NCBI GenBank assembly: GCA_013140715.1
Contig: JABFSG010000037.1
Span: 1-46,013, forward strand
Length of the DNA stretch: 46,013 bases
DNA from: Nitrospiraceae bacterium
GTDB lineage: Bacteria > Nitrospirota > Nitrospiria > Nitrospirales > Nitrospiraceae
Direction: 5' to 3'
Every line of letters begins with the position of its first letter. Within the stretch, counting starts at the first letter, position 1. Both the position numbers and the translations under genes were made by a program. Shown here piece after piece: positions 14,970-41,832 of the stretch. The notes beneath the pieces were generated by a model. That model ran no database searches. It was not told the DNA's origin and saw only the letters and a program-made list of their open reading frames with translations.

Positions 14970-15740
14970 ATGACAAACGTGATTGAACAGTTGGGACAGT
15001 GGGCCGTCGGTCGTGTGCGGGAGATGGGCCGCATGCTGTTGTTTCTGCTGTCGGCTTTTGCCTGGCTGGTGAGGCCTCCGTTCCGGTTCCATCAATTTAT
15101 GAAGCAGCTCCACTTTATCGGATACAAGTCCGTGTTCGTCGTCGTGCTCACGGCCGGATTTACGGGAATGGTGTTGGCGCTTCAAGGCTATTACAGCTTG
15201 CGGAAATTTGGCTCCGAAGGGTTGTTGGGCTCTGCAGTGGCGTTGAGCATGATCCGGGAACTGGGGCCGGTGTTGGCGGCATTGATGGTGACGGCGCGCG
15301 CCGGATCCGCCATGACCGCTGAAATCGGCATTATGCGGATTACGGAACAGATCGATGCGCTCGATACCATGGCCATCAATCCGATGCAATATTTGGTTGC
15401 GCCAAAATTGGTGGGAGGGTTGATCGGGGTTCCGCTGCTCGTCGCGTTGTTCGATGTGGTCGGTATTTACGGCGGCTCCCTCGTCGGAGTGGACCTATTG
15501 GGCGTAAGCGAAGGGGCCTATTGGAACTCGATGGAATCGGCCGTGGAATGGAAAGATGTGTACGGCGGCATTCTGAAGTCGGTTAGTTTCGGACTGATCG
15601 TCAGTTGGGTTTGTTGTTATAAAGGGTTCTATACAAGGCAGAGCGCTGAGGGACTCGGGCGTGCGACGACGGAGGCGGTAGTTCTCTCGTCGGTGCTTAT
15701 CCTTGTATGCGACTATTTCCTGACCTCGGTCTTGCTGTAA
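14970..15740 (+). CDS. mlaE: MlaE-like ABC transporter permease
   Basis: Inner-membrane permease of the Mla/Ttg2 lipid transport system, 256 residues. The family hallmark is the cytoplasmic motif region SMIRELGPVLAALMVTAR followed by GSAMTAEIGIMRITEQIDAL. About five to six hydrophobic segments cover the rest. It starts 14 bases after hpnG and is followed by mlaF, mlaD and mlaC in the same order as in Proteobacteria. No STAS-domain mlaB is seen. The cargo is normally phospholipid moving between the inner and outer membranes; the position behind hopanoid genes makes hopanoid cargo an inference to test. Confidence 0.92.
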   Translation: MTNVIEQLGQWAVGRVREMGRMLLFLLSAFAWLVRPPFRFHQFMKQLHFIGYKSVFVVVLTAGFTGMVLALQGYYSLRKFGSEGLLGSAVALSMIRELGPVLAALMVTARAGSAMTAEIGIMRITEQIDALDTMAINPMQYLVAPKLVGGLIGVPLLVALFDVVGIYGGSLVGVDLLGVSEGAYWNSMESAVEWKDVYGGILKSVSFGLIVSWVCCYKGFYTRQSAEGLGRATTEAVVLSSVLILVCDYFLTSVLL

Positions 15741-15745
15741 TACCC

Positions 15746-16501
15746 ATGATCAGGCTGGTCGGGGTCGAAAAAAAACTTGGTGGACAGCCGGTGCTCCAGG
15801 GAGTCGATCTTTCGATCCCCGTCGGCAAGCTCACGACCATTATCGGCCGCAGCGGAGAAGGAAAGAGCGTGCTTCTCAAGCACATGATCGGGCTTCTGCA
15901 GCCGGATCGCGGCGAGGTGTGGGTCGGCGACGTGGAAATATCCCGTCTGTCTGGGACGCGCTTAAACGATGTGCGCAAACGGTTCGCGATGCTCTTTCAA
16001 GGCGCCGCCCTGTTCGACTCCCTCTCGGTGTTCGAGAATGTGGCCTTCCCGTTGCGGGAGAAGTTGCGCATGAAGGGGCCGGGAGTGACGAAGCGGGTTG
16101 AGGAAAAACTGGGGGAGGTCGGATTGGCGGGGATGGGACACAAGTTTCCCGCCGAGTTGAGCGGCGGCATGCGAAAGCGGGCTGGGTTGGCGCGTGCGTT
16201 GGTCATGGAGCCGGAGATCATTCTTTTCGACGAACCAACGACCGGCTTGGATCCTTTGATGGCGAAGTCGATTCATGATTTGATTGTCACCATGCAGCAG
16301 CGGTTCGGCTTTACCGCAATTATGGTCAGCCATGAAATTCCGGAGATCTTCGGAATTTCCGATTGGGTGGCAATGCTGAGAAAAGGCAAAATTGCCTTGA
16401 TGGCCACGGCCGCAGAGTTCCAGCGGACGACCGATCCGGAAATTCAGGAATTCATTTCAGTCGGTGGAACTGTAGCGTTACCCGGTTCGCTCGCTGGGTG
16501 A
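15746..16501 (+). CDS. mlaF: MlaF-like ABC transporter ATP-binding protein
   Basis: ATPase partner of MlaE, 251 residues, cytoplasmic. Walker A GRSGEGKS is at residues 34-41, the signature is LSGGMRKRAGLARAL, and Walker B with catalytic Glu is IILFDEPTTGLDP. The switch His is in IMVSHEIPE. The LSGGMRKR form with Met-Arg is typical of the MlaF/Ttg2A group. The start at 15746 lies six bases after the mlaE stop; a longer in-frame form overlapping mlaE is possible but would not begin with the normal family N-terminus. Confidence 0.93.
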   Translation: MIRLVGVEKKLGGQPVLQGVDLSIPVGKLTTIIGRSGEGKSVLLKHMIGLLQPDRGEVWVGDVEISRLSGTRLNDVRKRFAMLFQGAALFDSLSVFENVAFPLREKLRMKGPGVTKRVEEKLGEVGLAGMGHKFPAELSGGMRKRAGLARALVMEPEIILFDEPTTGLDPLMAKSIHDLIVTMQQRFGFTAIMVSHEIPEIFGISDWVAMLRKGKIALMATAAEFQRTTDPEIQEFISVGGTVALPGSLAG

Positions 16502-16517
16502 GGGAGGAGCACCGAAG

Positions 16518-16961
16518 ATGGAGAAAACCAAGCTGGAGATGGTGGTCGGTGTGTTTGTGCTCGTCGGCGTCTTGTGCCTTGCGTATCTGTCGATCAAGCT
16601 CGGAAAACTCGAGATGATTGGCGGCGATGTCTACGAAGTTGAGGCGCAGTTCAACAGCGCCTCGGGGCTCAAGCCTGGTTCGACGATCGAAATTGCCGGC
16701 GTCGAGGTCGGCCGGGTCCGAGGAATTACGCTCGTCGAGGACCGTGCAAAGGTAAAATTGGCGGTTAATAAGACGGTGAAACTCTATACGGACACCTTTG
16801 CCTCCATCAAGACGCGGGGCATTATCGGAGAAAAGTTTCTGGCTCTGGCTCCGGGAGGGGGTGGCGATCCGCTCAAACCGGGAGATATGATACGCGACAC
16901 CGAGTCGGGCCTCGATCTTGAGGAATTGGTGAGCCAGTACGTGCACGGCAAAGTGAACTGA
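16518..16961 (+). CDS. mlaD: MlaD-like MCE-domain protein
   Basis: Inner-membrane-anchored substrate-binding subunit of 147 residues. A single TM helix (about 7-27) is followed by one MCE domain (YEVEAQFNSASGLKPGSTIE and IAGVEVGRVRGI), which in MlaD forms a hexameric ring with a hydrophobic pore in the periplasm. The length fits a minimal MlaD without the long helical extension of YebT or PqiB types. A strong ribosome site (GGAGGAG) precedes the ATG, 17 bases after mlaF. Confidence 0.9.
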   Translation: MEKTKLEMVVGVFVLVGVLCLAYLSIKLGKLEMIGGDVYEVEAQFNSASGLKPGSTIEIAGVEVGRVRGITLVEDRAKVKLAVNKTVKLYTDTFASIKTRGIIGEKFLALAPGGGGDPLKPGDMIRDTESGLDLEELVSQYVHGKVN

Positions 16962-16969
16962 CCTAACGA

Positions 16970-17049
16970 GTTTATTTGGTTGAGTTGGGTTGAGCGAAAC
17001 TAACCAGATGAACAAAACAACCCAAATCAATCAAACAAACTAAATAAAC
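16970..17049. repeat. AT-rich inverted repeat between mlaD and mlaC
   Basis: GTTTATTT at 16970-16977 is inverted as AAATAAAC at 17042-17049, and GGGTTG at 16987 as CAACCC at 17018. The arms are runs of TTGGTT/AACAAA words unlike the surrounding GC-rich coding DNA. A similar repeat is at 39600-39714. Confidence 0.65.
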
Positions 17050-17079
17050 CGAATAACATTTTGTACAGACGGAGGAGAC

Positions 17080-17730
17080 ATGGAGATCAAGGGATCTGCC
17101 GCGAGAGAAGCGCAGCGATGGAGTTGGGGCAGCGTCGTAAGCGGGATGGTCGGTCTGCTGTTGCTTGGCGTGGTTGCGGTTCAGCCGGCAACGGCTGGCG
17201 GCGCGACGGATGCCATGAAACACACCATCGACGAGGTGCTCACTACCATTCGGGACAAGGAGCTCAAACAGTCCGGGAAAGCTGAAGAACGCCGGCAGAA
17301 GTTGGAACAGATTGTCGGAGACCGGTTCGACTATCAGGAAATGTCGAGGCGATCGCTGGGCGCTCCCTGGAGTACCTTATCCGATAAGGACAAACAAGAA
17401 TTCGTCGCACTATTTCAGACCCTCTTGACCAATTCGTATGCCGATAAGATCGAGTCCTACTCTGGAGAGGGTGTGAAGTACATTAATGAACGGATTGAGA
17501 ATGATTATGCGGAGGTCAGGACCAAGGTGTTGACGGGCAAGGTCGAAATTCCGCTCGACTATCGTTTGCTCAACAAGGGCGGTGATTGGCGAGTATACGA
17601 CGTGGTGGTGGACGGTGTCAGTTTAGTCAATAATTACCGGGGGCAGTTTTCAAAGATCCTCCGGTCTTCAAGCTATGCCGACCTGGTCGATCAGCTTCGC
17701 AAGAAATCCGATAAGATCAAAGCCCAGTAA
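17080..17730 (+). CDS. mlaC: MlaC/Ttg2D-like periplasmic lipid-binding protein
   Basis: Soluble periplasmic shuttle of the Mla system, 216 residues. It has an N-terminal signal segment (hydrophobic stretch MVGLLLLGVVAVQPATA) and then the MlaC fold with the recognisable FDYQEMSRRSLGAPWSTLS, FVALFQTLLTNSYADKI and later YDVVVDGVSLVNNYRGQF. Strong ribosome site GGAGGAG. It is separated from mlaD by an AT-rich inverted repeat, but the gene order argues for one operon. Confidence 0.92.
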   Translation: MEIKGSAAREAQRWSWGSVVSGMVGLLLLGVVAVQPATAGGATDAMKHTIDEVLTTIRDKELKQSGKAEERRQKLEQIVGDRFDYQEMSRRSLGAPWSTLSDKDKQEFVALFQTLLTNSYADKIESYSGEGVKYINERIENDYAEVRTKVLTGKVEIPLDYRLLNKGGDWRVYDVVVDGVSLVNNYRGQFSKILRSSSYADLVDQLRKKSDKIKAQ

Positions 17731-29111: not shown

Positions 29112-29927
29112 ATGGGGAATATCATCAAGAAGCTGGCGATCGGTCTGGTGATCGGCGGTATACTTGTCGGCGTTGCGAAAGCGCTGGAGTTCCCCTTTGT
29201 GTTTCAGATGCTGTTCCTCGGCTTTGCGATGCTGGGGGCCGGCGTGTTCATACTGCTGGATGCGCCGCCTCTCAGGACGATGAGCGGGGCGAAGTCCGTC
29301 GTCGCTCTCGTGGCTGTCTATATTCTCTTATGCACAGTCTGTATCGCCGGCGCGACTTTTCTCCCACAATTCGACCCTGAAGAAGAAAAGGGGAAGATCG
29401 CAAAAATATTAAAGCCCCAGTTCGAGGCCTCAGAAAAGGGAAAGACTGAGGAGTTGATCGCGCGCGCCAAGGCGCTTGATGAGCAGGTGAAGGCGTTAGA
29501 AGTGAAGCTCATGACTCTGGGAGCAGAGCAGATGGCGAAGGGGCTGTCGACCGGCACTCCTATTCCCACTCCTCCTCCCACCCCGACGACCAACATGGTG
29601 GCCGGAGATTTTATGAAGCTGGGAGAAGAGCAATGGCAGCTGATGGAATGCTACAACTGCCACAAATTGAGGGGTGAGGGGGGAAAGAAGCGCGGTCCGG
29701 AGTTGGATAATATCGGCTCGTTTTTGACGGTCGAAGAGATTCAGCAGAAAATTACAGATCCCAAGAGCTTCATGGCCGAGGGATTCGAAAAAGAGTGGGA
29801 AAAGGGCAGGATGCCCGACAAGTTTAAGGAGCTCATGGAGCCGAAGGACATCCTGGCGCTCGCCTCCTGGCTGGGTTCATTCAAAAATACCTCGGTGAAT
29901 ACACCAAGGCCGATTAAGAAAAAATAG
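29112..29927 (+). CDS. Membrane-anchored monohaem cytochrome c
   Basis: A 271-residue protein with three hydrophobic segments (about 7-24, 28-48 and 64-85), a helical Lys/Glu-rich linker (about 90-145), a Pro/Thr hinge and a C-terminal cytochrome c domain with haem site CYNCH at 180-184 and a likely distal Met in GRMPDKF. It lies between the first CydA-like gene and the Rieske gene, which follows after one base. The hinge suggests a mobile haem head, as in the cytochrome c subunits of bc-type complexes. It may take the place of cytochrome c1 here. Confidence 0.9.
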   Translation: MGNIIKKLAIGLVIGGILVGVAKALEFPFVFQMLFLGFAMLGAGVFILLDAPPLRTMSGAKSVVALVAVYILLCTVCIAGATFLPQFDPEEEKGKIAKILKPQFEASEKGKTEELIARAKALDEQVKALEVKLMTLGAEQMAKGLSTGTPIPTPPPTPTTNMVAGDFMKLGEEQWQLMECYNCHKLRGEGGKKRGPELDNIGSFLTVEEIQQKITDPKSFMAEGFEKEWEKGRMPDKFKELMEPKDILALASWLGSFKNTSVNTPRPIKKK

Positions 29928-29928
29928 G

Positions 29929-30861
29929 ATGCAGCCTCAACTGAAATCGAAAGTCCGCTGTGCGGACCGGGAAGTCGGCGAAGTGACCAAGGTCATCATG
30001 GACCCGCTCTCCCATGATGTCAGCCATCTCGTCGTGTCGATGAACGGGTCAGGCGAACGGCAAGTGTCGATCGGCGCAGTGCAAACTGTGACGGAAGATC
30101 TGGTGCAGCTGCGTTCATCCTCGTCCGAAGTCATCGCGTTGCCGCCCTTCAAGCGCGAGGACTACGTCACGTTGCATGAAGTGGAAATTCCGGGCCTTGA
30201 GCGACATATTCACGTCGAATCGGGTGAAGTTCTGGTTCCGCTCCCTGAACTGGAACGAAACGTGAAGCGAAGGACCTTCTTTGCGAACTTGACCTATGTA
30301 ACGGGGCTCTTTATCGGGCTGCCGCTGGTCTATCCGGTACTGAAGTTTTTGATGAATCCGATGTATGCGTCGCTGGACAACAGATGGCTGAAGGTCGGCA
30401 ACGTCGCGAAGGTGAAGGCGGAGGATGTCGGGACTCAGTTTCAGTACAAGCGCAGGGTGAAAGAAGCCTATATGCCTGAATCTGAAATTGAGAAGAACGT
30501 CTGGGTGGTGAAGGCGACGCCCTCGGTGTTGGAAAAAGTCTACCAAGGGAAGGATATGGAATTCCGGGATTCCGCCGGGAAACCTATCTGGACCAATAAG
30601 AAAGACGTCCCTTTTCTGGCATTTTCCGGCAAATGCCCCCACCTTGGTTGCGGATTTAAATGGCGAAATCACAAGGTGCTCGGACCGGTCTTTCTCTGTC
30701 CCTGCCACTTGAGTATCTACGATGCATCCGGCAAGGTGCTGGATGGTCCTGCCCCACGCTCCCTCGACCTGATGCCGATTCAGGTGTCTTCGAGCGGTGA
30801 AGTGCAAATCATCGATATGGAATTTAAAGCCGGGACCAAGTCCCAAACGCGGATTGTGTGA
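29929..30861 (+). CDS. Rieske iron-sulfur protein with N-terminal PRC-barrel-like domain
   Basis: Rieske subunit of a quinol:cytochrome c type complex, 310 residues. The [2Fe-2S] ligands are in CPHLGC (Cys236, His238) and CPCHLS (Cys257, His260), with Cys241 and Cys259 as the usual disulfide. One TM helix is at about 118-138. Unusually, residues 1-80 before the TM helix form an extra domain that looks like a PRC-barrel (VRCADREVGEVTKVIMDP and later HLVVSMNG). It should face the cytoplasm. The stop overlaps the cytochrome b start, so the two are translationally coupled. The Rieske part is certain; the PRC assignment is by eye. Confidence 0.92.
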   Translation: MQPQLKSKVRCADREVGEVTKVIMDPLSHDVSHLVVSMNGSGERQVSIGAVQTVTEDLVQLRSSSSEVIALPPFKREDYVTLHEVEIPGLERHIHVESGEVLVPLPELERNVKRRTFFANLTYVTGLFIGLPLVYPVLKFLMNPMYASLDNRWLKVGNVAKVKAEDVGTQFQYKRRVKEAYMPESEIEKNVWVVKATPSVLEKVYQGKDMEFRDSAGKPIWTNKKDVPFLAFSGKCPHLGCGFKWRNHKVLGPVFLCPCHLSIYDASGKVLDGPAPRSLDLMPIQVSSSGEVQIIDMEFKAGTKSQTRIV

Positions 30862-31976
30862 TGAGCGACATTCCTCCTTCTGTCGGCCCGCCGGCCACCG
30901 TCGCCGAAAAAATCTTCGCCTTTGTCGATGAGCGGGTGGGGCTGAAGCAGCTGACAGCCAAGATGCTCAATGAGTCGGTCCCTGGCGGCTCGCGATGGGC
31001 CTATGTCTTCGGATCGATTCTGTTGTTCATCTTCATCATGCAGGCCCTGACGGGCGTGTTGCTGATGTTCTACTACGTGCCCACCGCCGACCATGCCTAT
31101 GCCAGTACCCAATACATCATCCATGACATCGACTACGGCTGGTTCCTCCTGAGCTACCATTTCTGGGGCTCTTCGGCCATGGTTGTTTGTGTATTTGCCC
31201 ATATGTCCCAAGTCTTTCTCTGGGGCGCCTATAAGAAACCGCGTGAGCTCATCTGGTTGGTCGGACTGGCGCTTTTTGCCCTCGTCATGGGATTCGGCTT
31301 CACAGGCTATTTACTCCCCTGGGACCAGCGTGCCTTTTGGGCCACGACCGTCGGCGTTGAGATTATGGATAAGGTGCCGGTAATCGGGGATTTCCTGGCG
31401 CGTTTCCTCAAAGGAGGTCCGACGCCGGGACAGATGACCTTGAGCCGGTTTTTTGTCATTCATGTGATGGTCCTGCCGGCAGCTCTAATCGGGTTGGCAG
31501 GGCTGCATCTCTTTCTTTTTCGATGCGCGGGGCCGGCTGGTCCGTTTCGAGGTACGCCGGTGGAGTTGAAGGCGAAGACCGATTATTTTTTTCCGCGGCA
31601 GATTTGGAAGGATGTCGTCGGGATGGCGGTGGTCTTTGCTTGTATCAGTGCGTTGGCCTTCTGGGAACCGGTGGTCTTATTGGACGAGGCGACCCCTGAC
31701 CCAGGCGATTACCATCCGGAACCGGAATGGTACTTCTTATTTATATTCCAGCACCTGCGCCTGAGGATGTTTTCAGGCGAGCTTGGACAGATATTCGGAT
31801 CGATCGTAGGCCCGGGCCTTCTCGGGCTTGTGCTGGTGTTCTTGCCCTTCTTCGACCGCAACCCCGAGCGAAATATATTCAAGCGGCCGATTGCTCTTAT
31901 CGGATGGGTGGTGCTCACGGCTTCGATCCTGTTGTTCACGGTGTCGGCCATTATCAATCGAGAGTTTTTGGACTAG
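30861..31976 (+). CDS. petB: Cytochrome b of a bc/b6f-type complex
   Basis: Membrane dihaem b subunit, 371 residues. Haem ligands are His100 and His114 in the first pair (13 residues apart) and His201 and His216 in the second (14 apart), a spacing known from b6-type cytochromes rather than mitochondrial cytochrome b (13 and 13). The quinol-site motif PEWY is intact in PEPEWYFLF. The polypeptide covers both the b6-like and the subunit-IV-like part in one chain. The ATG lies on the stop of the Rieske gene (a GTG one codon earlier is also in frame). The next gene starts about 280 bases later, after a repeat. Confidence 0.95.
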   Translation: MSDIPPSVGPPATVAEKIFAFVDERVGLKQLTAKMLNESVPGGSRWAYVFGSILLFIFIMQALTGVLLMFYYVPTADHAYASTQYIIHDIDYGWFLLSYHFWGSSAMVVCVFAHMSQVFLWGAYKKPRELIWLVGLALFALVMGFGFTGYLLPWDQRAFWATTVGVEIMDKVPVIGDFLARFLKGGPTPGQMTLSRFFVIHVMVLPAALIGLAGLHLFLFRCAGPAGPFRGTPVELKAKTDYFFPRQIWKDVVGMAVVFACISALAFWEPVVLLDEATPDPGDYHPEPEWYFLFIFQHLRLRMFSGELGQIFGSIVGPGLLGLVLVFLPFFDRNPERNIFKRPIALIGWVVLTASILLFTVSAIINREFLD

Positions 31977-31992
31977 CGGGATGCTGAGGAGC

Positions 31993-32016
31993 CGTGAAAC
32001 GTGAAGCGTGAAGCGT
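31993..32016. repeat. GTGAAACGTGAAGCGTGAAGCGT word repeat
   Basis: Tandem GTGAARCGT words directly after cytochrome b, of the same family as those at 2826, 5801 and 22120. Confidence 0.55.
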
Positions 32017-32028
32017 ATCTTGATATTT

Positions 32029-32137
32029 GCGCGAGACTCGCGAGACATGCGAGAAAAGCGGAACTGGTCGGGAGTTTTATCTTCGCGAGTCGCGCCTGTC
32101 GCGCACGTCTAGCTTGTCTCGCTCGCAGTTCACGAGC
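32029..32137. repeat. Long GCGAGAC palindromic repeat, copy B (inverted relative to A)
   Basis: Reverse complement of this stretch aligns with 24897-24998 through almost its entire length, apart from a middle segment of about 20 bases that differs. It splits the respiratory gene run between cytochrome b and the unknown membrane protein. Confidence 0.8.
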
Positions 32138-32260
32138 GGCGGACAGCGAGAACGGCCTGTTTGAGCATCTTGCTGGTGCATTTCTGTTCCCAACGCTGCG
32201 CAAAAGATGCAGAATGCCTAAACCTTCCGCATTCTCAATTGTCTATCGCTCGGTACCGGT

Positions 32261-33265
32261 ATGAACGAGACAATGTCTCCTACAAAGCTCGGGCTCGGGA
32301 TTCTCTGGCCCGCCTTCTGGACCGGTTTGCCGATCAAGCTTGCCCTAGCGGTACTCTTTCTATCGTTTGGGATCGTGCACTTTGAAACCAGGATCGCCCT
32401 TGCATTTTTGATGCTCCTGGCAAGCCCTGTGACCGTGTTTGCGCTGCCAACGATTACTCTAGGATTGGACTCACAGATTGGTGAAGGCGCCGGCATCGCG
32501 TTATTGTTTCTGCTGGCGATTCCGATCGATATTTGGGCGCTCAGGCTTGTGGGGCGAACATTTTTCCTTGAACATTGTCGGCGCGAGCCGCCGGCCAAGC
32601 TGGGGCTGACCCTCTGGTGGAAGTGTGCATTGGTCGGCGCCATCTTTTTACCGATCCTTTGGGTGGCTCAGGGTGCGATTACCGATGCTTCGATTTCTGC
32701 CGCCCATTCGTTGTTTGAAGGTGGTCTTCTGGAAGGAACTCCTATTGCAGAGAGAATCAGTATCGAGCTGACCCTCTGGGGCACTGTGGCTACAGGAGCG
32801 CTTCTGGGGTTTCTCATTCTCGGCCTCTCGCTTGTGGGGCGGATGATTCGAGGCACGGTACAGTTGGCGCCGCATGCTTCGGACAATTATGAAAGGTTGA
32901 TCACTCGTTGGGATCTGATGCGGGTACCGGCAGATCAAGGGTTGCTGCTTACCGTATGTTCCTGCGTCGCGATAGTGTTGTCCCTCCTTTTCTGGTCTTC
33001 TCTTCCGCAGTTTACGCCGCATCCGCACGAATGTTGCAAGAAGGTCGAAGTGAAGGCCGAACCGGAATTCAAACCGCTCGAAACACTGAAAAAAAATGAA
33101 AATACGATCGCACAGCTTGCAGCACGGGTTGAATTTTTGATAGAACAGCAGGCGGTCGCCGAGCTGGATAAGGAAAAGAGCAAGAAAAAAGGCGAGACAG
33201 GCAACGAAGCAGTGAATGAACCGGAGGCAACAGTGCCGGTTTTGCCTGGCGCCGTGAAACCATAA
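32261..33265 (+). CDS. Unknown membrane protein with C-terminal His/Cys cluster
   Basis: A 334-residue protein with about six TM segments (roughly 13-40, 45-68, 76-96, 118-138, 166-192 and 226-246). Right after the last helix comes HPHECC (His254, His256, Cys258, Cys259), which could bind a metal or form disulfides, then a predicted coiled coil (about 270-310) and a charged Lys/Glu tail. I do not recognise the family. It is followed by the second CydA-like gene after a very short gap, so it belongs to the respiratory operon and may be a complex-specific subunit or assembly factor. A short ATG alternative (32273) is possible. Neither start has a clear ribosome site. Confidence 0.72.
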
Positions 33266-33290
33266 CGTGGGAGATGATGAGGTGAGGGCA

Positions 33291-35153
33291 ATGCAACATC
33301 AGGGTGGATGGATTCAGCGGCTTCTCCAGATCGGCAGAGATCATGGAGGAACGCTTTCAATGCTCGTGATGGCAGCGGGCCTTCTCAGTCTTCCAGCGCT
33401 GGCCTTTGGAGCAGATGCCACACCGCCTGCTCCTGTCGAGTATCGTGACGTGCCATACGTCGGCAGCCGGAATGTGATCTGGGTTATTGCGCAACTCCAT
33501 TTGCTGCTCGCGGGGTTTGTGCTGGGAGTGCCGCTCTTCGCCTGGATATGCGAAGTCGTCGGCTGGAAGGGTGGCGAAAAGCGTTACGATAAACTCGCCA
33601 AGGAGTTTACGAAGCTTCTGACCTCCGCCTATTCCACGACCGCGCTCTTCGGCGCCATCCTGCTGTTTCTGCTGATCGGGTTTTATCCCAAGCTGATGAA
33701 TTATCTGAGCGATATTTTCTTTCCGTCGTTTATCGTCTATTGCATCCTGTTCTTGCTCGAGACTGCAACATTGTATCTCTATTGGTATGGCTGGGACACG
33801 ATGCAAGACGGCGGCAAGAAGACCTTTCATATTTTCCTCGGCTTCTTGCTCAACTTCTTTGCCTTCTTCATCATGATCATCCCCAACTCCTGGGCGACGT
33901 TCCAATCCAGTCCGGTGGTGCTTGCCGAGGGTTCGGATATTGCCCGAGCCTGGGCCGCAACGTGGAACCCCACCTGGTGGCCGGTGAACATTCACCGCAT
34001 CATTGCGAATGTGGTGCTCGGCGGCTACATCTGCGGTGCCTATGCCGGGATTCGCTATCTATCTTCCAAGACGCCGGAAGAGCGCAGCCACTACGACTGG
34101 ATGGGGTACGTTGGGAATTTCATCGGGGTCTTCGGTCTGTTGTCGCTTCCCTTTGCCGGCTACTGGCTCATGCGTGAAATCTACCAGTACAACCAGCAGA
34201 TGGGCATCACGCTCATGGGGGGATTTCTGTCGTGGTTGTTCATTCTGCAGGCCATGCTTATCGGCGTGCTCTTTCTCGGATCGAACTATTATTTCTGGAT
34301 AGGGATGACCTATCGCATTCCCGGGTCCGATCTGAAATATAAGAAGCAGATGTTGGCGATGTTGGTCGCGCTGCTGGTGTGCCTGGGTATCTGGATGACG
34401 CCCCACTCACTCGTAGCCAGCATGGAAGAAGCGAGAAAAATGGGGGGAAGCCACCATCCGCTTCTCGGTGTTTTCGGCGTCATGTCGGCCAAGATGACGG
34501 TCGCGAATCTCATGATCCTCGTTACTTTCATGAGCTTCATTATGTATTGGAGGGCCGGCAAGCAGGAAACAGCGGGCTGGGCTACGGCGGCGAAAGTATT
34601 TATGGGGCTCGTACTTGCCGTTTCTGCGATTGCGGTCATTGTCCTCGGCGTGTGGGGCTATTTCGTCCCGGCGATCATCCGCATCAACTACTTCTCTACG
34701 TCGCAGGTGTTGGTCGTGCTCGGTGTCATGCTGACGATCACTCCACTGACGAGCATTCTCTTGAAGAGCGCTAAGACCACGAGCGAAATGGTCTGGGGCG
34801 TAATGCCTCCCCGTGCCGGCTATTCTCTCGTACTCAATGCGATCATGATCATCCTCTTGATGACGCTGATGGGTTATGCACGGTCGTCGTCGCGCGTCCA
34901 TTGGCACGTTTATGGTGTGCTCCGTGATACGTCGCAATATGCCTATTCGCCTGCGCTTGGCTACGCATCTGGAATCATGGCCCTGTGCACGTTCCTATTC
35001 TGTATGATTGTGGCCTTCATCTTCTGGGTCGCCACCATGGGCGATAAGGCCAAAACACCTGCCGTAGCCAGTAAGGCGGGATTGCCGCACGGGCTCCCGG
35101 CGATGGCAGGCGGGTCGAATGCGCTGGATGAACCGAAGACAAGCAAATTCTGA
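33291..35153 (+). CDS. CydA-like multihaem membrane protein, paralogue 2
   Basis: A 620-residue membrane protein, paralogous to the one at 27369. Shared landmarks are His70 (IAQLHLLLAGFVLG), His235 (VNIHRIIANVVLGGY) and the motif MTPH later on. Unlike paralogue 1 it keeps a Glu (Glu157 in CILFLLETATLY) at the position that aligns with CydA Glu107. GRQPW is absent. The N-terminus has a signal-like helix ending ALAFGAD. The ATG at 33291 with GAGGTGAGG before it is preferred over a GTG 24 bases earlier. It is downstream of the unknown membrane protein and followed by two membrane-anchored cytochromes c. Function as an oxidase is unproven. Confidence 0.83.
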   Translation: MQHQGGWIQRLLQIGRDHGGTLSMLVMAAGLLSLPALAFGADATPPAPVEYRDVPYVGSRNVIWVIAQLHLLLAGFVLGVPLFAWICEVVGWKGGEKRYDKLAKEFTKLLTSAYSTTALFGAILLFLLIGFYPKLMNYLSDIFFPSFIVYCILFLLETATLYLYWYGWDTMQDGGKKTFHIFLGFLLNFFAFFIMIIPNSWATFQSSPVVLAEGSDIARAWAATWNPTWWPVNIHRIIANVVLGGYICGAYAGIRYLSSKTPEERSHYDWMGYVGNFIGVFGLLSLPFAGYWLMREIYQYNQQMGITLMGGFLSWLFILQAMLIGVLFLGSNYYFWIGMTYRIPGSDLKYKKQMLAMLVALLVCLGIWMTPHSLVASMEEARKMGGSHHPLLGVFGVMSAKMTVANLMILVTFMSFIMYWRAGKQETAGWATAAKVFMGLVLAVSAIAVIVLGVWGYFVPAIIRINYFSTSQVLVVLGVMLTITPLTSILLKSAKTTSEMVWGVMPPRAGYSLVLNAIMIILLMTLMGYARSSSRVHWHVYGVLRDTSQYAYSPALGYASGIMALCTFLFCMIVAFIFWVATMGDKAKTPAVASKAGLPHGLPAMAGGSNALDEPKTSKF

Positions 35154-35217
35154 ATGATGAATTTGGAGTGTAGCGCGGCACTCAGGGCCAAGCGTTCCTA
35201 ACTGCCCGAGGGGATAT

Positions 35218-35844
35218 ATGAGCGAAATTGTCAGACTACAGTTGATTGGTCTTAGCGTGGTTGGGGTGGGCATTCTGGCTCTCCTCTTCATTCGCGGCAC
35301 GTTCATCCGAGTCGTCGGATTTGTCGCGATTATACTGGGCCTCTTCACGCTCGTTTCATTGTCGATTCCGCAAATGGCGTCCTTGCCACCGATTGAAGAA
35401 AAGTTCGACATTGCCACGGTCAAAACACCGACCGACATGGCGACCATCGGGCAGAAGATATTTTTCAGTAAAGGCCAGTGTGCGCTCTGCCATACGATTG
35501 GCCCCAGTGAATCGGCCCGCTGCCCAGACCTGAAGGGGATCGGAGCCAAGTTAAGCCGTGAGTTTCTGTATGAAAGCTTGACGAATCCCCAGGCCTATAT
35601 CTACCAAGACTATCGTGTGGAGGGCATGGCGAAGGAATATCCGGCCACGATGCCCTACATCAATAAGAATCCCATCGGGCTATCCAGGAATGAGATTCTC
35701 GCGGTGATCGCATTCTTGCAGCAGATGAGCGGTGAGCCGATTTCTATCGCTGTATCTGAGCTAGGAACGCCGGAGCCGGCCCCTGTCGTTCCGGCGCAGA
35801 AAGCAGCCGAGTCCAGTCCAGTAGCCGTGGCGCAAGCGCATTGA
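35218..35844 (+). CDS. Membrane-anchored monohaem cytochrome c
   Basis: A 208-residue protein with two hydrophobic segments (about 7-25 and 31-51), then a cytochrome c domain with haem site CALCH at 88-92 and a distal Met probably in PATMPYIN. A Pro/Ala-rich tail follows. The start at 35218 has a GAGGGG ribosome site. It comes 64 bases after the second CydA-like gene and 10 bases before the next cytochrome c, so it is co-transcribed with both. Confidence 0.9.
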   Translation: MSEIVRLQLIGLSVVGVGILALLFIRGTFIRVVGFVAIILGLFTLVSLSIPQMASLPPIEEKFDIATVKTPTDMATIGQKIFFSKGQCALCHTIGPSESARCPDLKGIGAKLSREFLYESLTNPQAYIYQDYRVEGMAKEYPATMPYINKNPIGLSRNEILAVIAFLQQMSGEPISIAVSELGTPEPAPVVPAQKAAESSPVAVAQAH

Positions 35845-35854
35845 GGAGGAATGT

Positions 35855-36574
35855 ATGAAGGGTGCATTGGTCACGCCGGTCATTGTGATGGTGGTTGTCT
35901 ATTTGCTGTTAAAGTTTGTCGTGCCCAATATCCCTGGCTCTGCGCCGCTGCCCTTCAGCGTCATTATTCTCTATATGATGCTGACCCTCTCAGGGATTGG
36001 AATGTTTTACACACTGAGCAAAGATTCCAAAGACGCCTTCTGGGGCCCGATGGAACGGTTTTTGACAGGAGAAAACATCGGTGGAATGCAGGCGTTGCGC
36101 TGGGGCCTCCTGATTTTGTTCCCACTACTTGTCGGTTGGCAAACCTATAGCAGTACGGCGGTCAGCGATCAGCCTCCAGGGGAAAACCGGACGATTCATC
36201 CAGCCCCGCCAGGTGAATATGCAGGCTTGTCGAATCCAGTGGCAAAGACACCGGACGCGATCCAACAGGGGAAGGGTTTTTATGCCGCCTATTGCTCTCC
36301 CTGCCACGGTGGAAACTTCGATGGTAAGGGCCCTGCTGCAAGAGGGTTCAATCCTCCCCCGGCAAACTTCGCCGATCCAACGACAATCGCTATGCTCCAG
36401 GAGAGCTATCTTTTCTGGCGCATCAAGAAGGGTGGCGTCGGACTCCCCATCGAAGGGATGCCCTGGAAATCCGCGATGCCACGCTGGGAAGTCGAACTTC
36501 CGGACGAATGGATTTGGAAGATCATCATGGGCGAGTACGATGGAGCGCATCAATCACCGAGGACGTGGGAGTAG
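35855..36574 (+). CDS. Membrane-anchored monohaem cytochrome c
   Basis: A 239-residue protein with three hydrophobic segments (about 6-24, 34-53 and 80-97), followed by a cytochrome c domain with haem site CSPCH at 147-151 and likely distal Met in IEGMPWK or SAMPRWE. TGAGGAGGAA provides a strong ribosome site; an out-of-frame ATG four bases earlier is ignored. The N-terminal helices resemble those of the cytochrome c at 29112 in arrangement. It is part of the same operon. Confidence 0.9.
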   Translation: MKGALVTPVIVMVVVYLLLKFVVPNIPGSAPLPFSVIILYMMLTLSGIGMFYTLSKDSKDAFWGPMERFLTGENIGGMQALRWGLLILFPLLVGWQTYSSTAVSDQPPGENRTIHPAPPGEYAGLSNPVAKTPDAIQQGKGFYAAYCSPCHGGNFDGKGPAARGFNPPPANFADPTTIAMLQESYLFWRIKKGGVGLPIEGMPWKSAMPRWEVELPDEWIWKIIMGEYDGAHQSPRTWE

Positions 36575-36715
36575 GAGAGCGGGAAAACCGTTTTCGTCGC
36601 CTACAGCTCATGTCTGTTTGCAAAGTATGCGCGACCCAGCGGCGCTCGTTCGGTATGCATCGTAGAAGGCGCTAGCTCAAGCCGTAGAGCAGTGAGGAGA
36701 GAGAGGACAGAACTT

Positions 36716-37582
36716 ATGAAACGTGGATTGAATCAAATCCTTCCGAGCGCCATCGCGAGTGTCGGGCTGATTCTAGGATGTTTGATTGTGCAGCCGGTTT
36801 TCGCCGAAGAAAAAACTCCGGCGAGTGCACCGCCGGAATCAGCATCGGAGAGCAATGCGGTTAGCGCTTCGTTGGTGAAGGGTAGCCTGCCGACCGACGA
36901 TCCGACAGCGGCTGTGTGGAACACCGCGGCCCAGGCGAGATTTCCAATGTCGCCTCAAGTCCATTGGCCGAACCGAATTTTGGATGCCACAGTCAAAGAT
37001 TTGAACGTGCGTGCCTTGCACGACGGTACGAATGTCTCCATTCTGCTGGAGTATGCAGATCCGACGGAAGATGCAGACGATGCAGCCGCGGTTGAGTTCA
37101 TGGTCGGCGACAAAAAAGCTCACTTTGCGCATGGCCAACCGATGGCGCAGGTAGAAGGCGGTCCGGTCAATATCTGGTTCTGGAGGAATAAGGACGCCAA
37201 AGGCGTCGATATGAATGCCATGGGTTTTGGCACACTAAAAATACAGGAGCACCAGGACGTCCAGGCGAAAGGCGTGTATAGCAACGGTACCTGGAAAGTC
37301 GTCTTTACGAGGCCGCTCCTCACCGGACATCTGGAAGAAGATACGCAGATTGAAATGGGCGGCTTTATCAATATCGCCTTCGCCGTCTGGGACGGCAAGA
37401 AGGACGTCAGCGGAGGGATCAAGGAGAAGGGATCTCAAAAGGCCGTTTCATCCTGGTGGAATTTCCGTGCGGAGGCACCTCCAAATTATACCGGCTATTA
37501 CTATGCAGCCATCGCGGTCGGCCTGGCTTTTGGATTTCAGTTTTTCCTGATCCGTAATCTCAAGAAAGGGCATCGAGCATGA
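36716..37582 (+). CDS. Ethylbenzene-dehydrogenase-gamma-like haem b protein (NxrC-type fold)
   Basis: A 288-residue exported protein with a signal peptide (cleavage near PVFAEE) and a domain resembling the haem-b-binding gamma subunit of ethylbenzene dehydrogenase, the family to which NxrC of nitrite oxidoreductase also belongs. Landmarks are RFPMSPQVHWPNRILDATVK, a beta-rich core (RALHDGTNVSILLEYADP) and GGFINIAFAVWDG. Unlike soluble gamma subunits it ends in a TM helix (about 262-281) with a basic tail, so it is anchored. The ATG at 36716 has a purine-rich ribosome site. The next gene overlaps by four bases. No molybdopterin catalytic subunit is in the window, so it appears to serve the respiratory complex here. 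Confidence 0.82.
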   Translation: MKRGLNQILPSAIASVGLILGCLIVQPVFAEEKTPASAPPESASESNAVSASLVKGSLPTDDPTAAVWNTAAQARFPMSPQVHWPNRILDATVKDLNVRALHDGTNVSILLEYADPTEDADDAAAVEFMVGDKKAHFAHGQPMAQVEGGPVNIWFWRNKDAKGVDMNAMGFGTLKIQEHQDVQAKGVYSNGTWKVVFTRPLLTGHLEEDTQIEMGGFINIAFAVWDGKKDVSGGIKEKGSQKAVSSWWNFRAEAPPNYTGYYYAAIAVGLAFGFQFFLIRNLKKGHRA

Positions 37583-38604
37583 AGGCGGCCCCCTTATACG
37601 TAACGGGAGTGGTGGGTGCACTGATTGGCATCGGGGCCTTGGTTGCCGGGGGCTGTGCCAATGAGCAGCAGGCGAAGGGGCATGAACTGTATGGCCACTA
37701 CTGTTCGCACTGTCACGGTGATTCTGGGCGCCAAAACGAGGGATACAATTGGTCTTCGATGCCGGATCCGAAGCCCAAAGATCTCACGAACAAGTCAGAA
37801 ATGAGCACACTCAAAGACAAAGACATCTTCGATACGATTTACCGCGACATGAAGGACACGGGGGAAGGGGGCGACGAAATCGGTGACGACGAATTCGGCG
37901 TGCCCACCATGCCGTCGTTCAAGTACACCCTGTCGGAAGACGAGATATGGGCCATCGTCGGCTATGTCCGTGGCCTCCACGGCACGAAGTTAGAGTTCAA
38001 TGTCGAAGAGCGGAAGAAACAGTTGGCTGCAGCACTCGTCACAGCCCAAGGCAATTTGGAGCAGGCCACGAAGACCTATGAGGAGGCTGAAAAGAAAGCC
38101 AACGAAGAGGCCGAAAAGAAAAATGTGGATGTCGATGATGCAGCCTATGCCAATGAATTGGCTGCCATGGCGAAAGCGAAAAAAGAACTCGATGCAGCGC
38201 AAGCTGGGCTGAATAATTTTACGGCAAGACCTGGAAAAGGGGTGAGTATAGCCAGGCCAGATCTCACCGTGAAGCCGGCGGATGTTCCGAAGTTGGTAGA
38301 GCTCGGCAAGCGATACTATGAGGACAAGTATGGCTGCAACGGCTGCCATGCTATCGGCGGTGAGGGGGGTAAGGTCGGGCCAGCGCTTGATCGCGCAGGA
38401 TTCAGATTGAACCCAACCTGGGTCTATCGGTGGCTGAAGAATCCACAGGCAATGAATGCGGAAACTAGGATGCCGGCGCTCGGGCTGAGCGATGCCGATG
38501 CCAAGGCTGTGACGATGTATCTGACGACGTTACGCGCGGCTGGGAACCCTGAGGGTTCGTCCAACAAGCCGGAAGAGGCTCCGCCGGCCAAGCCGGAGAG
38601 TTGA
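37579..38604 (+). CDS. Dihaem cytochrome c lipoprotein with coiled-coil linker
   Basis: A 341-residue lipoprotein (lipobox AGGC, Cys26) with two cytochrome c domains. The first haem site is CSHCH at 42-46 with Met in PTMPSFK; the second is CNGCH at 253-257 with Met in TRMPALG. Between them, residues about 140-212 are a Lys/Glu/Ala-rich coiled coil, an uncommon linker that may hold the haems apart or make contacts in the complex. The start overlaps the preceding gene by four bases (ATGA), so the two are translationally coupled. It is the last gene of the cluster. Its stop is two bases from the convergent ubiA stop. Confidence 0.92.
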   Translation: MKAAPLYVTGVVGALIGIGALVAGGCANEQQAKGHELYGHYCSHCHGDSGRQNEGYNWSSMPDPKPKDLTNKSEMSTLKDKDIFDTIYRDMKDTGEGGDEIGDDEFGVPTMPSFKYTLSEDEIWAIVGYVRGLHGTKLEFNVEERKKQLAAALVTAQGNLEQATKTYEEAEKKANEEAEKKNVDVDDAAYANELAAMAKAKKELDAAQAGLNNFTARPGKGVSIARPDLTVKPADVPKLVELGKRYYEDKYGCNGCHAIGGEGGKVGPALDRAGFRLNPTWVYRWLKNPQAMNAETRMPALGLSDADAKAVTMYLTTLRAAGNPEGSSNKPEEAPPAKPES

Positions 38605-38606
38605 AC

Positions 38607-39506
38607 TCAGAGCAGAAATCCCGCGACTATTCCGATAAAGACAGCGACTCCTACCCACACATGTTGCTGAAACATGTGAAAGGCGGTGGGAGTCGTGACG
38701 GTTTGCCTCAGCTGCAAGGCTTGTCTCACGCACCATAGGCCGATCGCAGCGAGCGCTCCATAATAGATCCAGCCGATGTCGGCGAACCAGCCAGCCAATC
38801 CCAGCAGCAGCAGCATGGCGCAGAATACTGTGCCGACAGCGATCCACGTCGAGGAACCGAACAGCAACGCCGAAGATTTCACGCCGATTCGGCGGTCGTC
38901 ATCCCGATCCTGTAACGCATAGATCGTATCGTAACCAATTGCCCAACAGACCGTCGCAGCGAACAGACACCAGGCCGGGGCTTCAATCGTTCCACGCGAC
39001 GCGGTCCAAGCCATAATCGTGCCCCAGCCGAAGGCGATTCCCAAAATGGCTTGGGGGATATGGATAATGCGTTTGGCGAAAGGATAGGCGCCGGCCAAGA
39101 GGATAGCGATGGGACTCAGAAGGATTGTGAAGGGATCGAGGAACAGTACGAGTATTCCGGCCAGTACGAGAAAAAAAGCGAAGACGAGCCAGGCATGTGT
39201 GGGGCTGAGTTCGCCCGATGCGAGTGGCCGGACCCTTGTGCGGGTCACATGGCGGTCGAAAGATCGATCCGCTAAATCGTTTAGGACGACTCCTGCACTG
39301 CGCATCACAAAGGACCCGATGGCGAAGATGGCGAACAAGTGCAACGGAGGCATGCCGCGAGTGGCCAAGACCAAGGACCAGAGTGTCGGGAGCATGAGTA
39401 GCCAGGTCCCAGTCTGGCTCTGGAGACGAATGAGTCGGCAGATGGCCGACCAGGAAAGTTGAGGCGACAAAGGCGGCCCTGACTCCGCCGAAGAAGATTC
39501 GGTCAT
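38607..39506 (-). CDS. ubiA: UbiA family prenyltransferase
   Basis: Integral membrane aromatic prenyltransferase of about 299 residues. The two Asp-rich motifs are present: NDLADRSFDRH with RTRVRPLASGELS, and DRDDDRRIGVKSS, both needed for Mg-diphosphate binding. About eight or nine TM segments follow the UbiA pattern. It resembles 4-hydroxybenzoate polyprenyltransferase, but organisms that use the futalosine menaquinone route have a similar enzyme (MqnP), which is the main alternative. The ATG at 39506 is used; a TTG nine bases upstream is possible. It is convergent with the cytochrome operon with no room for a terminator between them. Confidence 0.9.
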   Translation of the reverse strand: MTESSSAESGPPLSPQLSWSAICRLIRLQSQTGTWLLMLPTLWSLVLATRGMPPLHLFAIFAIGSFVMRSAGVVLNDLADRSFDRHVTRTRVRPLASGELSPTHAWLVFAFFLVLAGILVLFLDPFTILLSPIAILLAGAYPFAKRIIHIPQAILGIAFGWGTIMAWTASRGTIEAPAWCLFAATVCWAIGYDTIYALQDRDDDRRIGVKSSALLFGSSTWIAVGTVFCAMLLLLGLAGWFADIGWIYYGALAAIGLWCVRQALQLRQTVTTPTAFHMFQQHVWVGVAVFIGIVAGFLL

Positions 39507-39599
39507 GGGGATCAACTTAGCCGAGGGCTGTTTGGGCTGTCAACGAGGCAAAAAGCGTGGCGCGTGAAGCGCGAGTTGGCTGGTTTTTCTTGTTTATTT

Positions 39600-39753: not shown

Positions 39754-41658
39754 ATGATTGTGCAGGTCATTGATTCAGCGCGTCATTCCATCTTGCTTCG
39801 TGCAGCCGCAGGGGTTGTCACGGGGCTCTGTATTGTAACCTTGATGAGCTGTGGGCTCTTCTCGAATCGCGGCAGCGCGAATCTCGGATCCAATCTTCCC
39901 CTCACCGTCCAACTTCGACCTGATTCCGGTATCGTCGGGGCGCAGCTTACCTATCGGGATGCGTGCGGTCAGAAGCAATTCTTGCCGATCGGCTCTCCCT
40001 TGCAGGACATGCTGAAGCGAAAGACAGGCCGTGTGTTTGAAAGGGTCTTGACGGATGAAACCGGATCCCTGTCGGCTCCCGATGGGTATGTCGATACATC
40101 GTTGGGTCCGGCCTATGTCGATCTTCTCATCCCTCGAAAGGTCGACAAAAGCTACCCTGCCACAGTCACTCTGGGATTGGACTTTGCATACAGGGCCACC
40201 GATGGAAGGGTTCTCTACAGTAAGAAGATTCAAAGCATCGGTCGTGGAGAAGTCAATGTTACTGCTGCCTCCTGTGAGGTGAAGGGGCTCGATGCGATTG
40301 CTCAGGAGGCCATGGATTATGTGACGGATGGTATGGCCAATCAACTCGGGACATCCAACAATATTATCGATGCCGCTCAAGCACGCAAGGCTGCCGGTCC
40401 CCAGGCAGCCGCATATACGAGACCGGCAGTTGCAGCGCAATCGGCTGTAGCCGTACCTGTGCCGGCTTCAGTGGATGGGTCTGCCACGGTGATATTTCGG
40501 GCGATTGTCAGGACCGAAAATCACAATCAGGTGCTCCATGCCGGTGAAGCAGTTGTGATCGAAATTGAAATCAAGAATGAAGGGCCTGGAATAGCACGGG
40601 CGGTTGAATTGTCGGTGGCTGCTACGCCGCCCTTGATCGAGGGGATTCCGAGCATAGTATCCGTCGGGGATCTGCAGCCCGGCGAGGTGAAGCGCCTCAC
40701 GTTGGACGGCAAGGCTGGAAGAGTCAAAGATGCAATAGAGGCGGAGCTGACGTTGACAGTGGGAGCCGGGTCTCCATCGGTTCAATTGCCATCCCCCAAG
40801 AAGTTTGTAGTGGCGACGAAGCCTGAATCCGATATGAAGGCTGTGGCACTGCCGATGGATGTGGATCATTTGCCGAAACAGACCGGCCTGCTCAAACAAC
40901 CCAAGGCCGTCGGCATTGTCGTCGGGGTGGGCCGATTTCGGGAAAGCGGTATTGCCAAGGTTAAGTATGCGGTACGGGATGCGGAAGTGATGGCTGCGTA
41001 CCTCAAATCGATTGGAGGGATTCCTCCCGAGCGTGTACGTACACTTCTCGATACCCATGCTCTCAAGGATGACCTGACGGAAGTCTTGGAAGAGTGGTTG
41101 CCCAAGCAGGTAGACCCTGCCACCGTGGTCTATATCTCAATCGTAGGAAGAGGAGTGGTTGAGTCCACCACCGGCGCAGTGTCGGTGATGTTATTCGACA
41201 GTACTGCCGCGTCCGGTGCGCGGCTCTATTCGCTCCGTCGGCTGCAGGACTCCTTGGCATCATTGCCGATCCGGCAAGCAGTGGTGATGCTCGACCTCTC
41301 ACTCGAACTGGCACCGGGCAGGGAGGTAGTAGATGGAGTGGTTCCCTTATGGGGACAGGGGGGAAGCGGGAAAGAAAAGATTATGTGGATGGTCGGCAAC
41401 CAGGTAGTCAAGGAGAGCAATAGTTATGACCCAGGCCGGCATGGACTCTTTACCTATCAATTACTCAAAGGCCTTAGTGGTGCGGCCGATCTCGATAGAA
41501 ACGGTACCATTCTGGCCGGCGAACTCTGCGCCTATACCAAGGGGCAGGTATTCAAGGTAGCCCAGGAGCAGTATGGTAGTGGGCAGGAACCCCTCTGTTT
41601 TCCGAGACCTGGCCAAGGGGCTTCGGTCCGGTTGCAGCCAGTTGCCCGGTTCAAATAG
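39754..41658 (+). CDS. Lipoprotein with caspase fold lacking the catalytic dyad
   Basis: A 634-residue lipoprotein (lipobox LMSC near residue 32). Parts in order: an N-terminal beta region (about 45-190), a Pro/Ala linker, an Ig/CARDB-like domain (about 250-360, with VIEIEIKNEGPGIARAVELSV) and a C-terminal caspase (C14) fold starting KAVGIVVGVG near 384 and continuing through YAVRDAEVMAAYL. Where caspases have the His of a GHG motif it has Arg466 (IVGRG), and where they have Cys after LDA it has Ser516 (MLDLSLEL). It is therefore probably a pseudopeptidase with a binding role on the envelope. The caspase match is by pattern. An upstream in-frame start (39646) is less likely. Confidence 0.72.
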   Translation: MIVQVIDSARHSILLRAAAGVVTGLCIVTLMSCGLFSNRGSANLGSNLPLTVQLRPDSGIVGAQLTYRDACGQKQFLPIGSPLQDMLKRKTGRVFERVLTDETGSLSAPDGYVDTSLGPAYVDLLIPRKVDKSYPATVTLGLDFAYRATDGRVLYSKKIQSIGRGEVNVTAASCEVKGLDAIAQEAMDYVTDGMANQLGTSNNIIDAAQARKAAGPQAAAYTRPAVAAQSAVAVPVPASVDGSATVIFRAIVRTENHNQVLHAGEAVVIEIEIKNEGPGIARAVELSVAATPPLIEGIPSIVSVGDLQPGEVKRLTLDGKAGRVKDAIEAELTLTVGAGSPSVQLPSPKKFVVATKPESDMKAVALPMDVDHLPKQTGLLKQPKAVGIVVGVGRFRESGIAKVKYAVRDAEVMAAYLKSIGGIPPERVRTLLDTHALKDDLTEVLEEWLPKQVDPATVVYISIVGRGVVESTTGAVSVMLFDSTAASGARLYSLRRLQDSLASLPIRQAVVMLDLSLELAPGREVVDGVVPLWGQGGSGKEKIMWMVGNQVVKESNSYDPGRHGLFTYQLLKGLSGAADLDRNGTILAGELCAYTKGQVFKVAQEQYGSGQEPLCFPRPGQGASVRLQPVARFK

Positions 41659-41756: not shown

Positions 41757-41832
41757 GCCGGCGTAGCTCAGTTGGTAGAGCAGCGGTTTCGTAAACCGCA
41801 GGTCGTCCGTTCAATCCGGATCGCCGGCTCCA
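41757..41832 (+). tRNA. tRNA-Thr (CGT)
   Basis: Acceptor GCCGGCG pairs with CGCCGGC, the D loop is AGCTCAGTTGGTAGAGC, the anticodon stem GCGGT/ACCGC encloses TTCGTAA giving anticodon CGT, and the T arm has the GTTCAATC loop. CCA is encoded (41830-41832). Confidence 0.95.

Follow-up and report, generated by a model that had tools for sequence, protein, structure and literature searches.

The window, by which we mean the whole stretch of 46,013 nucleotides of a Nitrospiraceae contig that was analysed, encodes a lipoprotein with a caspase fold in which the catalytic His and Cys are replaced by Arg466 and Ser516. The protein is probably an accessory, modular and non-proteolytic pseudo-orthocaspase that serves as a binding module and rides with periplasmic electron-transport machinery. 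Bacterial pseudo-caspases have so far been tied mainly to phototrophs, without a settled molecular role. A genus-wide dead caspase that is under purifying selection, carries one fixed residue pair and has a known address in nitrifiers offers a clean case for the role of a caspase fold that does not cut, and its locus supplies natural domain deletions for comparison (Ig-caspase, N-caspase, N alone or none). The features of the gene and its surroundings are listed in Table 1.

Table 1. Features of the pseudo-caspase gene and its neighbours, with positions in the window
Feature	Position	Strand	Basis
Respiratory cluster: cytochrome c, Rieske, cytochrome b, bd-like oxidase, cytochromes c, ethylbenzene-dehydrogenase-type (alternative NxrC)	29112..38604	+	Pfam
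UbiA prenyltransferase gene, divergent upstream neighbour	38607..39515	-	PF01040, E 9.4e-59
Pseudo-caspase lipoprotein gene, 634 aa	39754..41658	+	Open frame; start shared by relatives
Signal peptide and lipobox (LMS-C33)	39754..39852	+	Sequence by eye, Cys conservation
N-terminal alpha/beta domain, residues 46-218, outer-membrane-lipoprotein fold	39889..40407	+	AlphaFold model, structural match
Ig/CARDB-like domain, residues 243-357	40480..40824	+	Strand pattern in model; CARDB in relatives
Caspase-fold domain, residues 385-632	40906..41649	+	AlphaFold model, Foldseek, VIA, NF047832
Arg466 codon, catalytic His position	41149..41151	+	Alignment with intact paralogues, metacaspase profile
Ser516 codon, catalytic Cys position	41299..41301	+	Alignment with intact paralogues
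EF-hand-type loop D579-x-[D/N]-x-[D/N/S]-G-x-[V/I]-x3-E590	41488..41523	+	Residue conservation, helices in model
tRNA-Thr (CGU), downstream neighbour	41757..41829	+	Rfam tRNA

Caspase fold and replaced dyad

Upon re-reading of the open reading frame, the gene coordinates and the residue numbering used in a first-pass annotation of this DNA proved correct. The start codon is backed by conservation, the closest relatives also opening with MIVQVIDS- at this position. A pseudogene was ruled out, as the frame is open in relatives at 31-90 % identity and dN/dS lies between 0.12 and 0.31 for all three domains in the three pairs compared. With the 90 %-identical relative, values of 0.12, 0.28 and 0.13 were obtained for the N-terminal, Ig and caspase domains, respectively; two other pairs gave 0.16-0.31, and the caspase domain ranged from 0.13 to 0.26 over the three pairs. 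All domains are under purifying selection.

The caspase-fold landmarks recognised in the first-pass annotation, which had proposed a comparison with metacaspase and orthocaspase folds by structure prediction, are borne out by an AlphaFold model of the full protein built on a 77-row alignment (mean pLDDT 81). Residues 381-632 of this model matched the MALT1 paracaspase in VIA with a Z score of 23.7 (rmsd 3.0, 218 aligned, 13 % identity), ahead of metacaspases and caspases, which scored about 20-21, and the best Foldseek E value to MALT1 was 1.1e-10. The match extends to residue 632, close to the C-terminus of the protein. The NCBIfam model NF047832 (caspase, EACC1-associated) was found over residues 388-594 with an E value of 5.9e-7, far under its curated cut-off, and together with the MALT1 match it places the domain in the caspase-hemoglobinase fold. 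PF00656 (Peptidase C14) was not reported for the window protein at E<=10 and stayed below its gathering score; it detects 10 of 30 family members, with a best E value of 4.2e-10. MALT1 and the metacaspases, at about 13-16 % identity, are the closest solved folds. MALT1 likewise combines Ig and caspase domains, albeit with the Ig domain after the caspase domain in MALT1 entries ('caspase-IG3') and before it in the window protein. Conservation is highest in the caspase domain, whose median identity to the window protein is 0.50, compared with 0.38 and 0.40 for the other two domains.

Unlike MALT1 paracaspase and the metacaspases, which carry the His/Cys dyad, the window protein has Arg466 in the context VYISIVGRG and Ser516 in VVMLDLSLE. 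In an alignment with intact paralogues from related genomes, these columns are those of the H of (S/A)GHG and the C of DSCFSG, so that the two replacements named in the first-pass annotation are confirmed. Solved yeast-type metacaspases, aligned with a profile of the window protein and its paralogues (E 1.4e-4), place their SGHG at this His column. The loss is common to the relatives, a point on which a check of homologues had been proposed: among 81 rows (the window and 80 named loci), 80 have Arg and one has Asn at position 466, and position 516 is Ser in 75, Thr in four, Ala in one and missing by truncation in one, Ser or Thr thus occupying 79 of the 80 rows with a residue. When the 248 positions of the caspase domain are ranked by entropy, from the least variable upwards, Arg466 comes 24th and Ser516 37th, which argues that the dead site is constrained and is not drifting. 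Of the neighbouring acidic residues, D514 is Asp in 71 and Glu in six rows, and D409 is kept in 77 of 77; their equivalents in MALT1 presumably bind basic P1 residues. The protein lacks the His-Cys dyad of an active orthocaspase of Peptidase C14 and, with a p20-type caspase domain and a substituted dyad, probably belongs with the pseudo-orthocaspases. As judged from the sequence, His/Cys proteolysis appears to have been lost, which is strongly supported.

A different Cys/His pair in the active site, which the first-pass annotation had named as a finding that would contradict it, was considered and rejected. The conserved Cys residues are 33, 71, 174, 592 and 615 and the sole invariant His is 563, and by sequence none of the possible pairs seems to fit the site, His563 being invariant in intact paralogues too and Cys592 and Cys615 being absent from several rows. 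It is also highly improbable that the protein is still an enzyme, with Arg466 and Ser516 as a new catalytic pair. Both residues are nearly fixed and Ser is a possible nucleophile, but Arg would be a poor general base, Thr and Ala occur at position 516, and the proteins of family f2, at the same locus, have Asn or Ser combined with Ser or Ala.

The caspase domain has also kept a 12-residue loop of the EF-hand type (D-x-[DNS]-x-[DNS]-G-...-E), which is flanked in the model by helices 565-577 and 588-607. D579 and E590 are present in 77 of 77 rows and G584 in 70 of 77. The loop is common to the intact paralogues, and calmodulin-like chains were seen among weak profile matches; it may bind calcium.

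Lipid anchor, N-terminal domain and Ig domain

The lipid anchor, the Ig/CARDB-like domain and the caspase domain listed in the first-pass annotation were all recovered, while an N-terminal domain resembling outer-membrane lipoproteins and the conserved locus had been missed. The signal peptide and lipobox, judged by eye and by conservation, are those of a lipoprotein: Cys33 directly follows LMS and is kept in 78 of 81 alignment rows, with two gaps and one Gly. Cys33 is followed by a residue other than Asp. At E<=1, 24 of the 30 members scanned matched CARDB, the best with 1.4e-5 but the window copy with just 0.15; the label Ig/CARDB-like is a fair one.

When modelled alone (pLDDT 93), the N-terminal domain matched XCC0632/DUF330 (2iqi) with a VIA Z score of 11.8 (rmsd 3.3, 143 aligned), followed by CsgG (Z 11.2), PelC (10.5) and LptE (about 9.5). 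It thus shares the fold of the PqiC / ABC-transport auxiliary lipoproteins, other lipoprotein families lying within about 1-2 Z. This fold recurs in outer-membrane lipoproteins. Identity to the PqiC-like/DUF330, CsgG, PelC and LptE proteins is about 8-14 %, and no caspase domain was named in these matches. In alignment A2, from which the partial sequences L065, L126, L127 and L128 were left out (A3 additionally lacks L092, L098, L100 and L121), C71 and C174 are invariant. Disulphides may form between C71 and C174 and, in most members, between C592 and C615. Through its lipid anchor, the protein would be held at the periplasmic side of the outer membrane, a placement suggested by the lipobox, by the residue after Cys33 and by the fold of the N-terminal domain.

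The same fold raises the alternative that the protein assists lipid or envelope transport at the outer membrane, as PqiC or LptE do, and that its caspase and Ig domains are docking modules. Retention of the N-terminal domain alone at two loci (L275, L291) is in line with this, but two other loci (L287, L288) have the Ig and caspase domains without it. A Pfam scan of the window protein gave no match to PqiC / ABC-transport auxiliary lipoproteins, which were likewise absent among 30 members, and LptE was matched in only one of the 30 members scanned (E 0.012). No recurring transport gene was recognised beside the locus, where the recurring downstream clusters were identified in part. A transport accessory is, on balance, decidedly unlikely.

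Some 22 kb upstream of the gene, at 14970-17730, genes are located that by eye resemble an Mla/MCE lipid-transport operon, an observation worth recording given the PqiC-like N-terminal domain.

Paralogues and known pseudo-orthocaspases

Caspase-profile matches were found in 143 open reading frames, 115 with an N-terminal and/or Ig domain and 28 without either. Both His and Cys are present in none of the 115 (neither residue in 109, His with Pro at the Cys position in five, one truncated) versus 23 of the 28, the other five having His only, in a comparison that counts reading frames distinct as letters, near-copies of one species included, and takes its dyad-bearing side largely from 20 regions hand-picked out of the match list. 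Dyad loss follows architecture. In a tree of 76 caspase domains, to which long-branch warnings apply, the group of the window protein forms one clade (100/99); groups A, B and f3 were joined with 87/40, and the main intact group received 92/98.

Several variants were seen among the paralogues. Full-architecture or Ig-caspase proteins on L161, L162, L166, L168 and L171 have retained His, the Cys being replaced by Pro. Other paralogues, 368-374 aa long, combine N-terminal and Ig domains without a caspase domain; they are encoded on L193 and L194 (G088 and G081), with further profile matches on L169 and L170. On L142 (G041), three caspase genes with an intact dyad lie near each other, and one N-terminus is by eye that of a lipoprotein with ankyrin-like repeats.

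The genome from which the window derives contains two more dyad-less paralogues of full architecture, C100 (Leu/Ile) and C38 (Val/Ile). Caspase folds dimerise, and the protein could pair with an active caspase-type protease and so regulate it, as c-FLIP does with caspase-8. Other genomes of the genus and family do encode intact paralogues, with lipoprotein-like N-termini of their own. In the window's genome, however, PF00656 was found at three places only at E<=0.001, one of them with an intact dyad (C59) and, by eye, no signal peptide at its N-terminus; the C9 protein (L151) is exported by eye and has kept His but has Ala at the Cys position. Pairing is very unlikely here because no active exported partner was found in this genome. 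Together with L173-L176, the C9 protein belongs to a separate caspase-domain group with F[VA]GHAG, including the His, and with the Cys replaced by Ala or Gly.

A survey of bacterial pseudo-orthocaspases lists in its main text 862 such proteins, mostly from Alphaproteobacteria and Cyanobacteria, with YS, YA, FS, QC, HA and YN as common dyad replacements and a proposed link to photosynthesis; 'Nitrospir' does not occur in this main text (PMC6426788). Deletion of SyOC in Synechocystis was reported to raise oxidative-stress tolerance (PMC7889975). As described in these two texts, pseudo-orthocaspases such as SyOC resemble the window protein in having a caspase p20 fold with both His and Cys replaced, Ser being common at the Cys position. 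Those of the Tyr-Ser type also have an extra N-terminal part with an export signal, and, like the window family, pseudo-orthocaspases are common throughout a lineage that has membrane electron transport (PMC6426788, PMC7889975). The window protein differs in having Arg for His, a replacement absent from the common pairs listed there, and in its lipid anchor, Ig domain, lipoprotein-type N-terminal domain and Nitrospirales host. For caspase homologues of Nitrospirae, a dyad conservation of just 57 % was given in 2012, and dyad loss had thus already been seen in the phylum; the accessible text describes no family, locus, Arg/Ser pair or architecture (PMC3501461). Dyad-less bacterial caspases (PMC6426788, PMC3501461) and the low dyad conservation in Nitrospirae are therefore already known; the first-pass annotation does not mention the published dyad-less proteins. 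New, within the literature searched, are the Arg/Ser lipoprotein family with its fixed pair and architecture, its locus and the dropout of domains. Among titles and abstract starts of the literature on Nitrospira caspase-type proteins, no paper on the window protein was recognised.

Locus and proposed role

The pseudo-caspase gene is divergent from the UbiA gene and lies outside the operon of the respiratory cluster, of whose nine genes seven were scanned and six had a Pfam match. In 72 of 74 loci, the next gene upstream is a divergent UbiA gene. One exception, the Nitrospira contig L058, has a second UbiA copy adjoining the gene; here, cytochrome c and UbiA genes are doubled in tandem upstream of the pseudo-caspase. 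The alternative NxrC-type gene lies upstream in 63 of 64 loci and the bd-like oxidase in 58 of 59. In a separate count, the latter was found in 56 of 59 loci, versus 17 of 44 for the best single protein cluster downstream; tRNA-Thr(CGU) lies downstream within 1.5 kb in 66 of 68 relatives. In family f2 (L195-L198), the gene order is unchanged at 31-33 % protein identity.

All named relatives are from Nitrospira, Nitrospiraceae or Nitrospirae/Nitrospirota, and a profile of the N-terminal domain matched 53 of 198 genomes of the phylum, all within the order of the window (47 of its own family and six of family f3). An orthologue is present in 26 of 31 genomes of the same genus. Among the others, G023 has the first 26 codons at a contig end, the contigs of G004, G015 and G029 stop before passing UbiA, and in G027 the roughly 940 bases that follow UbiA, 110 N included, gave no match. 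Two further genomes of the family, G216 and G249, have just the start of the gene, at a contig end.

Between UbiA and tRNA-Thr(CGU), most loci contain the N-Ig-caspase gene. Natural deletions at the same spot have left Ig-caspase (L287, L288), N-caspase (L289, L261) or the N-terminal domain alone (L275, with 217 aa, and L291), and in L276 and L278 about 200 bases separate UbiA from tRNA-Thr. In the f3 loci (L247-L257), no relative of the pseudo-caspase was found between UbiA and tRNA-Thr, the tRNA being within about 1.4 kb of UbiA in 11 of 11; bd-like oxidase, alternative NxrC, cytochromes, UbiA and tRNA-Thr are all kept in this family. Since domains drop out at the locus, no single one of them is indispensable, and since the cluster persists without the gene, the gene is accessory to it. 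In four f3 loci (L250, L252, L253, L254), a small open reading frame, antiparallel to the orientation of the pseudo-caspase and with sequence in common such as IRH[TS]W or GDWMIVVA, was observed at its spot.

A function deduced from synteny alone was dropped, the contrast between upstream and downstream conservation being weakened by the conserved tRNA-Thr and by the f3 block without the gene. With the whole block up to tRNA-Thr conserved, the neighbourhood is weak evidence of function. Sites next to tRNA genes often take up inserted DNA, and with f3 lacking the gene in an otherwise retained block, a respiratory link is no more than possible.

From its gene content, the cluster in the window would correspond to a region of N. 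moscoviensis reported to be highly expressed and to contain complex III, bd-like oxidase 2 and alt_nxrC_1, for which a complex III-IV supercomplex was suggested; the accessible text has no word beginning with caspase or lipoprotein (PMC6606698). This proposal and the fixed position of the gene beside the cluster in two families would suit an assembly or stability factor dedicated to the complex III, bd-like oxidase and alternative-NxrC machinery. Against it stand the position of the gene outside the operon, its absence from the locus in L276 and L278 and f3, which has the machinery but not the gene. A dedicated respiratory role is possible, but such a factor is unlikely, and f3 counts against an essential role.

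We favour an accessory envelope protein with a binding or sensing role, which is supported by the fixed replaced residues, the purifying selection, the conserved EF-hand-type loop and the outer-membrane-lipoprotein-like N-terminal domain. The caspase domain would act as a binding module, possibly tuned by calcium. Since Arg466 and Ser516 are fixed, the site may have been kept for binding, with the former active-site cleft, lined by these two residues, holding a protein or peptide ligand without cutting it. The protein would accompany, and may help to organise or monitor, the adjoining periplasmic electron-transport machinery, which can presumably exist without it. A more specific version of this proposal makes it the respiratory counterpart of the photosynthesis-linked pseudo-orthocaspases: an outer-membrane receptor whose Arg/Ser pseudo-active site would bind a peptide or protein from the periplasmic machinery of nitrite oxidation and oxidase, its affinity being set by calcium at the EF-hand, and whose N, Ig and caspase modules would have been discarded one by one, at one locus, by different lineages. 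This version is speculative and rather unlikely.

Near tRNA-Thr, several assemblies (L006, L007, L014, L015, L022 and the contig ends of G023, G216 and G249) stop inside the gene or about 220-380 bases past it, as if this site carried repeated or variable inserted DNA.
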